Shown here: piece by piece, positions 26,422 through 29,134 of the stretch
How positions within the stretch are numbered: position 1 is the first letter of the stretch
How the letters are laid out: each line of letters opens with the position of its first letter
Assembly (NCBI GenBank): GCA_005888095.1
Contig: VBKF01000177.1
Coordinates: 1 to 57,462, forward strand
Direction: 5' to 3'
Length of the DNA: 57,462 nt
Source of the DNA: Deltaproteobacteria bacterium
GTDB taxonomy: Bacteria > Desulfobacterota > Binatia > DP-6
Notes under the pieces: model-generated
Databases searched by the model: none
The model's input: only the letters and a program-made list of their open reading frames with translations
What the model was told of the DNA's origin: nothing
Position numbers and translations under genes: made by a program

Positions 26422-26451
26422 CCCTTCTCTCCGCCAGCCCAACCTCTCGAG

Positions 26452-26526
26452 TGCCCCCGGCGCGAATCGAACGCGCGACCCCCTGCTTAGGAGGCAGGTG
26501 CTCTATCCACTGAGCTACGAGGGCGG
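26452..26526 (-). tRNA. tRNA-Arg (anticodon CCU)
   Basis: A full cloverleaf reads on the minus strand. The acceptor stem is GCCCTCG paired with CGGGGGC, with a G-U pair. The D arm is GTAGCTCAGTGGATAGAGC. The anticodon stem CCTGC/GCAGG encloses loop CTCCTAA (anticodon CCU, reading AGG). The T arm has TTCGATT. CCA is not encoded. It is 75 nt long. Confidence 0.95.
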
Positions 26527-27359: not shown

Positions 27360-28088
27360 CTAGGCGTCGAGCAGCGCGCGGGCGCGCGAGAACACGCGAT
27401 CGAGCATCGGCTGCGTGAGCTTGCCCGTGAACGTGTTCTGCTGGCTCGGGTGATAGGAAGAGAGGAGCACCATGCCCGAGGGCAGGCGATGCTCGCCGCC
27501 ATGCGCGAACGACGGGGCGGGACGCGGCACGAGCCGGCCGCGGCCGCGCTCGGCGGCGAGGAAGCTGTCGTGCGCCACCTTGCCGAGCGCGACGACGATC
27601 CGCAGCCGCGTCAGCAGCCCGAGCTCGCCGAGCAGGTAGCGCCGGCAGGTCGCGATCTCGAGCGGCGTCGGACGGTTGGCGGGTGGCGCACAGCGGGCCA
27701 CCGCAGAGACGAAGGCGTCGCGCAGGCGAAGCCCGTCATCCCGGTGCAGGGAGGACGCCTGGTTGGCGAAGCCGGCGCGGTAGAGCGCCGCGTAGAGCCA
27801 GTTGCCGCTCTCGTCGCCGGTGAAGATGCGGCCGGTGCGATTGCCGCCGTGCGCGGCCGGCGCCAGCCCGACGATCAGCAGACGGGCGCGCGGATCACCG
27901 AAGCCGGGAACGGGCCGGCCCCAGTACGTCCAGTCGCGGAAGCGGGCCACCTTCTCGCGCGCCACCCGCTCGCGATGCTCGACCAGCCGCGGGCAGAGCC
28001 GGCAGCGAGTGAGCCGCTCCTCGAGGCGGGCGAGCGCCTCACTCCCCGCACAGGACCCCGGCGGTGACGAAGAGCGCGTGCGTCTCAT
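27360..28088 (-). CDS. Uracil-DNA glycosylase, family 5 (UdgB) type
   Basis: This 242-residue base-excision repair enzyme has the iron-sulfur Cys pair CRLCPRL near residue 30, GLAPAAHGGNRTGR with FTGD near residues 75-90 (motif A of the family 5 type), and the substrate loop SSYHPSQQNTFTGK near residue 210. It would remove uracil and other deaminated bases from DNA. ATG 28088 is the only good start and makes it overlap the upstream Hint gene by 50 nt in another frame, so the two are expressed together. The stop is 8 nt from the stop of the ACP gene, which is convergent. Confidence 0.9.
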   Translation of the reverse strand: MRRTRSSSPPGSCAGSEALARLEERLTRCRLCPRLVEHRERVAREKVARFRDWTYWGRPVPGFGDPRARLLIVGLAPAAHGGNRTGRIFTGDESGNWLYAALYRAGFANQASSLHRDDGLRLRDAFVSAVARCAPPANRPTPLEIATCRRYLLGELGLLTRLRIVVALGKVAHDSFLAAERGRGRLVPRPAPSFAHGGEHRLPSGMVLLSSYHPSQQNTFTGKLTQPMLDRVFSRARALLDA

Positions 28089-28500
28089 GCACGGTGCCGG
28101 TGAAGACCTGCCCCTCCCCCGCCGGCTCCACCGCGCGCACGGCGATCCACGGCCCGGCGGCCTCCGGACCAGCCCCTGCCGGCGCGTAGCCCGCCGGGTA
28201 GTGAGCGGCCGTCTCGAGCGCGTCTCCGGGCGCCAGCTCGGTGGCCGGCACCGGGCGCATGCCGGCCCGGTAGAAGGGATGGCCGCGCGCGGCGAGGACG
28301 GCGTGCCCGGTGGTCAGTATCACCCGCACGAGCGGCACCGGTCCCGCGGCGTTCACCTTGATCAGCTGCCGGAAGCCGAGCCGGCCGGAGGGCAGCCGCG
28401 TGAGGACGGGAAAGCCCTTGCCCGGCGTCTCGGCGATCGGCACCGGTCCCTCGGCGGTCTCGACCATGCAGCCCGCGGCGAGGCCGCGCGCGTCCTCCAT
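28039..28500 (-). CDS. Stand-alone Hint (intein-like) domain protein
   Basis: This protein has 153 residues from ATG 28500. After ten residues it shows the intein N-block with Cys (AAGCMVETAEGPVPIAE), a block B-like TTGHAVLAARGHPF near residues 75-88, LAPGDAL and a block F-like VFTGTVHETHALFVTAGVL near the end. A normal intein ends in His-Asn before the next residue, but here the frame stops at CGE, so C-terminal cleavage and splicing are not expected. It is short, has no endonuclease and no host protein around it. It overlaps the glycosylase gene by 50 nt. It may be an autoprocessing or protease-like Hint protein, or an intein relic. Confidence 0.75.
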   Translation of the reverse strand: MEDARGLAAGCMVETAEGPVPIAETPGKGFPVLTRLPSGRLGFRQLIKVNAAGPVPLVRVILTTGHAVLAARGHPFYRAGMRPVPATELAPGDALETAAHYPAGYAPAGAGPEAAGPWIAVRAVEPAGEGQVFTGTVHETHALFVTAGVLCGE

Positions 28501-28558
28501 CGCGGCCGGGGACGATAGACCGCCGTCCGGGCGCTGCGCAAGGCTGCCGGCGCACCAT

Positions 28559-29134
28559 CTACGGGCGTGCGGCGCGGCGGCGACGCGCGAGCCGGCCCGC
28601 GGCCTGCTCGACCAGCGCGTCCGCACGCGCCAACAACGATTCGTTCCGTGTGTGGCGCTCGATCATGTACGACAGGTCGCCGAGGTCGTGGATCAGCAGC
28701 TGGATCGCCCGCCGCCGCCACTCCGGGTCCTTCACCACGCTCAGCATGTCGATCACCACGTCCTCGAGCTCCGAGGCCTCGAGGTCGATCGCCATCTCGA
28801 ACGCCCGCTCCAGGCTGACTCCCGTCCGGGCTTCGCGGACGTAGGCGCCCAGCAACGACCGCAAGCGGGTCACGGTGGTCGGGTCGAACCACACCCGCGT
28901 CCGGGCCGCCGCGCGGGGATCAGAGTCGATCACCGTCTCGACGAGCGCCAGCGCGCCGCAGTGGCCCGCCTCGTGGCGCGCCATGCCGAACCAGAAGTTG
29001 CGGACCTCCTCGGGTCGAGCGAATGCCTGCACGAAGGCCACGTAGAGGCCCATCGTCTTTTTCTCGAGCTCGATGGCGGTGTCGAGGATCTCCCGGATCG
29101 TCGTGCGCCGGGCGCGCTGCCGGGCCGCGGGCAT
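28559..29134 (-). CDS. Ferritin-like (rubrerythrin-fold) protein
   Basis: This 191-residue helical protein starts at ATG 29134. It has the carboxylate-bridged diiron pattern of a ferritin-like four-helix bundle: an early Glu in AIELEKKTMG near residue 20, E-x2-H in MARHEAGHCG near residue 54, then EMAIDLEASELE near residue 120 and a later His/Glu helix (LLIHDLGDLSYMIERH). It resembles rubrerythrin-related proteins without the rubredoxin domain. It may store iron or reduce peroxide. It is divergent from the 29184 gene. Confidence 0.75.
   Translation of the reverse strand: MPAARQRARRTTIREILDTAIELEKKTMGLYVAFVQAFARPEEVRNFWFGMARHEAGHCGALALVETVIDSDPRAAARTRVWFDPTTVTRLRSLLGAYVREARTGVSLERAFEMAIDLEASELEDVVIDMLSVVKDPEWRRRAIQLLIHDLGDLSYMIERHTRNESLLARADALVEQAAGRLARRRRAARP

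Follow-up and report, generated by a model that had tools for sequence, protein, structure and literature searches.

An intein-like gene kept in several bacterial families suggests a new, non-cutting job for a free-standing Hint domain

In a 57,462-nucleotide stretch of bacterial DNA (the whole of which is referred to here as the window), a 153-residue open reading frame on the minus strand (28039..28500, with an ATG start at 28500 and a TGA stop) encodes what we consider, with a probability of about 0.7 and on sequence grounds, to be a free-standing Hint domain that would no longer splice or cleave and is maintained as an ordinary gene of the host, inherited mainly vertically. The finding that this intein-like gene, termed pseudo-Hint, is kept in several taxonomic families of the class suggests that it has taken on a new, non-cutting job.

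The start codon of pseudo-Hint is matched by an ATG at the corresponding place in its two nearest relatives (G001 and G002), and its translation ends in GVLCGE. As originally predicted for a short frame joined by overlap to a DNA-repair gene, it shares 50 bases with a gene of the uracil-DNA glycosylase (UDG) superfamily at 27360..28088 on the same strand (ATG at 28088; Pfam UDG, E 7e-26), whose GLAPxxxGxNRTGRxFTGD stretch we take to suggest the family-5/UDGb type. Upstream lies a co-directional gene of 191 residues without a Pfam match (28559..29134, minus strand), the product of which, judged from a motif, is presumably ferritin-like. In all six other sampled genomes of the window's taxonomic family (f1; f-numbers denote families of the class), at loci L033-L038, a helix-turn-helix gene of about 120 residues is located between the ferritin-like and pseudo-Hint genes; just 58 bases separate these in the window (28501-28558), which gave no convincing match to it. 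Apart from a tRNA-Arg (CCT) gene at 26451-26524, no RNA gene was found in the window. No host protein was seen around pseudo-Hint in the window or in 27 aligned relatives, so that the earlier reading of a protein with CGE in place of a final His-Asn and without a host is borne out. Longer open frames surround some relatives (523 residues in G018 and 882 in G386), and in both of these the upstream part of the long frame is covered by another called gene; in neither the window nor the aligned relatives was the region seen to be a piece of a split, spliced or otherwise larger protein.

On its own, the window protein has no Pfam match at E 5, and single-sequence searches with it returned weak intein leads (the NCBIfam replicative helicase PRK07773, E 0.02; the Pho RadA intein, E 0.17). 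The family profile, A1, comprises 28 sequences that share 26-93% identity with the window protein (fragments L023 and L030, as well as the near-duplicates L031/L032, were omitted, and rows L013 and L018 were taken without an ATG or GTG start). Searched against the PDB, it gives a best E of 5.2e-05 and 12 sequences at E 0.001 or better, of which one is named as a DnaE intein and the rest bear the name of the host protein; these other 11 are presumably intein structures as well. A BIL domain comes next, at E 0.036. Comparison by hhalign with the class's own DnaB mini-inteins (L112 and L114) yields a match of 97.4% (E 1.2e-11, 134 columns) within which blocks A, B and F follow in order, against maxima of 1.9% for 60 column-shuffled controls and 0.9% for the reversed one. 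In residue identity, the window protein and the L114 mini-intein share 27% over 134 aligned columns, and the five members compared share 18-32% with the mini-intein of L112. The match to the tandem PT-HINT/BIL-like domains of L139 is weaker (92.2%, E 5.9e-07). Within Pfam, the best member matches are to Hint_2 (PF13403; E 0.015, two of the 28 members matching) and Intein_splicing (PF14890; E 0.017, four of the 28), and neither the window protein nor any member reaches the gathering scores (curated cut-offs of 28.4 and 35.8 bits, respectively, with the members' shortfall deduced from E-values). The resemblance of profiles across blocks A, B and F thus places the family in the Hint superfamily, confirming above chance the Hint likeness that was first noticed in the sequence, with intein structures leading the list; judged by this homology, the family descends from inteins. 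An AlphaFold model made from three sequences had a pLDDT of 36 and was discarded, so that the Hint fold itself is deduced from sequence.

Register was set by aligning 34 members with the class's DnaB mini-inteins; these 34 rows, used for residue counts, conservation and the tree, derive from the 40 genomes with strong profile matches described below, leaving out five f6 genomes and the truncated f7 copy of G012. In this alignment, a block-A-like region spans residues 6-17 (28450..28485), with the C1 position at Gly6 (28483-28485) and Cys11 at block-A position 6 (28468-28470); a block-B-like region comprises residues 65-77 (GHAVLAARGHPFY; 28270..28308), with Ala71 at the Thr and His74 at the His position; the family-typical YPxGY motif at residues 101-105 (28186..28200) lies between blocks B and F; and a block-F-like C-terminus, residues 121-153 (28042..28140), ends in Cys151-Gly152-Glu153 where inteins have Ser-His-Asn, placing Gly at the penultimate and Glu at the terminal Asn position (all on the minus strand). 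The original prediction stands as regards blocks A, B and F and the loss of the His-Asn end, and fails in counting block A from Cys11, which is out of register with C1 at Gly6; the C1 residue and the block-B Thr are missing too, reducing the block-B pair to His74.

The other members have lost nearly the same set of residues. At C1, the 34 sequences have Gly (10), Arg (8), Cys (5), Ala (5), Gln (4), Ser (1) or Val (1), and all five cysteines belong to f7. None has the block-B Thr, the penultimate His or the terminal Asn (whose column reads Ala in 24, Glu in seven and Ser in three); the block-B His position is occupied by His in 19 and Gln in 15, and at +1, 17 members have a gap and one has Thr. 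Cys11 aligns with the Thr of the intein sequence C-V-P-G-E-T, at position 6, in a column of 13 Thr, nine Ala, six Cys and six Ser; both the register and this poor conservation rule it out as the nucleophile. Cys is found at the Cys151 position in 19 members. Measured against an intein, the window protein and its aligned relatives lack exteins, and the window protein further lacks a C1 nucleophile (Cys, Ser or Thr), the full block-B Thr and His pair and a His-Asn end; none of the 34 members combines the C1 nucleophile and C-terminal His-Asn of a BIL or Hint autoprotease.

Conservation has its maxima elsewhere, with G18, R35, F43, L95, Y105 and G148 invariant and E14, P19, V32, T34, G39, G92, G104, G128 and V137 next; Y105, invariant in 28 sequences, belongs to the YPxGY motif that is missing from both mini-inteins. 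Of the 153 columns, that of the block-B His/Gln comes 24th, so that one catalytic position remains constrained, and the former Asn position, now mostly Ala, ranks 27th; the block-B Thr, penultimate His and C1 positions come 58th, 108th and 125th. With Cys at C1 in five members and the block-B His in 19, residual thiol chemistry is possible, and by their residues the f7 members with Cys at C1 may be the place to look for it.

The presence of the gene largely follows family. When the genomes of 58 relatives were searched at the protein level, pseudo-Hint was found in 29, that is, in every genome of eight families (f1 7/7, f3 1/1, f6 8/8, f7 6/6, f8 1/1, f11 3/3, f13 1/1 and f15 2/2), and in none of the 29 genomes of f2, f4, f5, f9, f10, f12 and f14. 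The A1 profile, run over 148 genomes of the class, matches 49, of which 40 are strong (E 4.1e-34 or better); four of the other nine correspond to a second family in f9, and five match only inside open frames of at least 669 residues. Over 297 genomes of the phylum, 14 match, made up of three family members (G000, G003 and G013) and 11 matches outside the class: L125-L127, rejected as members since by eye they look like inteins in ribonucleotide reductase or DnaB; seven in open frames of at least 654 residues; and one, in G330, covering 43 positions of a 235-residue frame. As the profile scored the best 25 (class) or 12 (phylum) first-look candidates per genome, absence of a match is not proof of absence. 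Family-wide checks located the gene in 13 of 14 f6, five of five f11 and five of seven f15 genomes; there was no match in one f6 genome (70% complete) and in two f15 genomes, both of g245 (93% and 100% complete), the latter indicating that the gene is probably dispensable in f15. The gene is single-copy in all genomes with a strong match but G037, where a 99-residue fragment is found in addition.

The profile search covered one phylum; for plasmids, phages and IMG/VR, the queries were single members or sub-alignments, and the contig search, with the window protein as query, reaches close relatives only. Within this scope, plasmids and IMG/VR gave no homologue and phages one weak local match (E 0.07) inside a ribonucleotide reductase, and a phage or plasmid origin, for which no convincing homologue was seen, was set aside. 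Far from lacking homologues, the window protein belongs to a free-standing family that occurs widely in the class and shows purifying selection, which supports the original suggestion of a new small Hint family.

Signs of selection come from 14 close pairs, in which the NG86 dN/dS of pseudo-Hint is 0.073-0.436, overlapping the values of three nearby genes compared between the window and two f1 genomes (UDG 0.16-0.18, ferritin-like 0.08-0.09, DnaA 0.24-0.28). When the window is compared with L002, pN is 0.036 and pS 0.349 over the 136 codons that UDG does not overlap, and the signal is thus not due to that overlap. No stop codon interrupts any of the listed matches of the 58- and 148-genome searches. 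An unrooted tree of 40 rows largely follows taxonomy: f1, f6, f7, f13 and f9 each form one clade, neither f11 nor f15 comes out as a single clade, each requiring two changes, and the ten groups together need nine changes, which is the minimum. Low dN/dS and a taxonomy-like tree argue that pseudo-Hint is not a decaying relic; with the catalytic set gone, it is probably not an autoprotease either.

Neighbouring genes, identified with simple ORF callers that include spurious frames and missed the Hint gene in L122 and L123 although it is present there, vary between families. The ferritin-like gene is upstream in all seven f1 genomes and at none of 22 other loci. The f6 gene is accompanied by alcohol dehydrogenase (Pfam), riboflavin synthase and ClpB (both by eye), that of f7 by NnrU (Pfam) or a thioredoxin-like gene, that of f8 by acyl-CoA dehydrogenase (Pfam), and that of f11 by EF-G-like and ETF genes (by eye) and a gene of 176-183 residues; in f15 genomes G038 and G057, pseudo-Hint is directly downstream, on the same strand, of a PolX-type repair polymerase gene (Pfam was run on that of G038 only). 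A DNA-repair theme across families, considered on account of UDG in f1 and f3 and PolX in these two f15 genomes, is not supported by the other, mostly metabolic neighbours. UDG directly follows pseudo-Hint in all f1 (7/7) and f3 (1/1) genomes, overlapping it, by candidate starts, by 4 bases in G002, G004 and G008 and by about 40-50 in the others; it is near pseudo-Hint at none of the 21 loci of f6, f7, f8, f11, f13 and f15, several of which are short (loci L119-L124 were left out of the count). A strong match to UDG lies elsewhere in 13 of these 21 genomes (in 12 of them on another contig, and in G051 on the same contig at a distance of about 530 kb), the remaining eight have none, and 12 genomes of f2, f5 and f12 carry UDG without pseudo-Hint.

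It was proposed that the protein works with the glycosylase, and the pairing is indeed conserved in f1 and f3; the 21 other loci, the eight genomes without UDG and the 12 with UDG alone weaken the proposal. That pseudo-Hint is an accessory subunit of the overlapping UDG, such as a regulator or a partner that hands over substrates, is unlikely: the overlap of 4 to about 50 bases in eight of eight f1 and f3 genomes and the position downstream of PolX-type genes in G038 and G057 speak for it, but 0/21 linkage in six other families, UDG located elsewhere in 13 and absent in eight of those genomes, its occurrence without pseudo-Hint in 12 more and the mostly metabolic neighbours speak against. Synteny and phyletic pattern rule out UDG partnership as a general role, and UDG is not an obligate partner of the protein.

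Another reading, the Hint autoprotease of the original prediction, has an active Hint or BIL domain cleave at Cys11 or at its N-terminus to release a short peptide. It could draw on the retained His74 of the window protein, the C1 cysteines of f7 and the frequent Cys at the Cys151 position; it is nonetheless quite improbable, considering that C1 is Gly in the window and Cys in just five of 34 members, that none of the 34 has a terminal Asn, a penultimate His or a block-B Thr, that Cys11 is off the nucleophile position in a column reading Thr, Ala or Ser in 28, and that there would be little to release, with approximately 0-30 residues ahead of C1. We regard as very improbable that the protein is not a Hint domain at all and that its blocks are coincidental likenesses in an unrelated beta protein; the window protein's lack of a Pfam match at E 5, the members' best E-values of 0.015-0.017 and the AlphaFold pLDDT of 36 would fit such a case, but not the ordered A/B/F match of 97.4% over 134 columns, with shuffled controls at 1.9% or less, or the intein structures at the top of the A1 profile's PDB matches. 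Finally, the idea of an intein-like relic, here a decaying intein being lost as a pseudogene in the manner of the Arth_1007 intein of Arthrobacter, is hardly credible: catalytic residues are lost in both (for Arth_1007, according to passages of PMC3196547), but pseudo-Hint has dN/dS values of 0.07-0.44 in 14 pairs, overlapping those of three nearby genes, no internal stop in the listed matches and no relaxation of selection, and it is kept across eight families.

The preferred reading, a host-maintained Hint domain without cutting activity, would have the Hint fold retained and catalysis absent. The protein would bind a partner, probably by way of the former extein or active-site cleft and of the positions whose conservation is new to the family (G18, R35, F43, Y105 and YPxGY), and in f1 its gene is probably co-expressed with the ferritin-like gene and with UDG. 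The presumed direction of change, on an unrooted tree, is from intein to host gene. More tentatively, one may imagine an intein domesticated within the class, which left its host gene, lost splicing and was kept across eight families as a fold acting in trans, which would either use the former extein cleft to hold a peptide or protein or perform a new reaction by way of the conserved His/Gln, Arg and Tyr; this fuller scenario is possible but doubtful. Inteins are usually viewed as selfish elements that splice or vanish. If the reading is correct, a selected, splicing-dead, free-standing Hint family would be a clear counter-example to that view, and the reuse of an intein fold as an ordinary host protein would become directly testable, with natural variants available from 40 genomes.

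Other Hint-type proteins were noticed along the way. The second family, A3, of f9 (G356, G370, G371 and G372; L108-L111) consists of proteins of 191-195 residues with a conserved CAVANWYPV and a glycine-rich C-terminus with a GGGIGIAI-like tail; like the main family, which it matches at 97.4% (E 1.5e-11, hhalign), it is free-standing, has Gln at the block-B His position (four of four) and lacks a terminal His-Asn, and it is closer to tandem BIL-like Hint domains (97.3%) than to mini-inteins (92.6%). The window's own genome contains an apparently intact intein in its aconitase gene (G000:C91:127319-127591, L116), with an HN|C junction and Pfam matches to Aconitase and, below the cut-off, Intein_splicing; it is the second match of the A1 profile in that genome. 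In the same phylum but outside the window's class, Tim44-like proteins L139 (G066:C15), L141 (G195:C82) and L142 (G148:C330) carry tandem Hint domains, four in L139 and L141 and two in L142, all of which have C1 and end in His-Asn ahead of Lys-Gly spacers (L141 and the membrane segment were judged by eye); Pfam confirmed PT-HINT/Hint plus Tim44 in L139 and L142, and no Tim44 was found in the open-licence PMC literature on Hint, among the matches listed.

Among known systems, the mini-inteins (the DnaB ones of L112 and L114 and the DnaE type of the PDB) have blocks A, B and F in the same sequence as the family, and share its GD motif; they are embedded in a host protein and have C1, block-B Thr and His, terminal His-Asn and a +1 nucleophile, whereas the family is without exteins and nearly all of these residues and has an extra YPxGY stretch ahead of block F. 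BIL, PT-HINT, Hint_2 and Vint domains belong to the same superfamily, as reflected by the match to the PT-HINT-like domains of L139; unlike them, the window protein has no Pfam match, and the best members reach no better than E 0.015-0.017 (Hint_2 and Intein_splicing). The author of the report deposited as PMC2362128 is, we presume, Bürglin (2008). Passages of that report describe conserved upstream regions in other bacterial Hint-like proteins (PMC2362128), and passages of another place BIL domains, which autocleave, in variable regions of larger bacterial proteins (PMC7765530). In the open-licence PMC literature, none of the matches listed describes a Hint family that is both free-standing and splicing-dead, and the nearest report is that of the Arth_1007 intein pseudogene of Arthrobacter sp. 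FB24. According to passages of the latter, this intein is almost free-standing, its exteins amounting to 66 residues in all, is catalytically dead, and was linked by the authors to a prophage remnant; they knew of no earlier case of a decayed intein pseudogene being retained in a genome. Tori and Perler also argue there that an intein without activity should diverge until it is no longer recognisable (PMC3196547). The two cases are thus alike in being free-standing, or almost so, and without catalytic residues, but the Arth_1007 intein, in the account given there, is a lone pseudogene, whereas the pseudo-Hint family occurs widely in its class and is under purifying selection.
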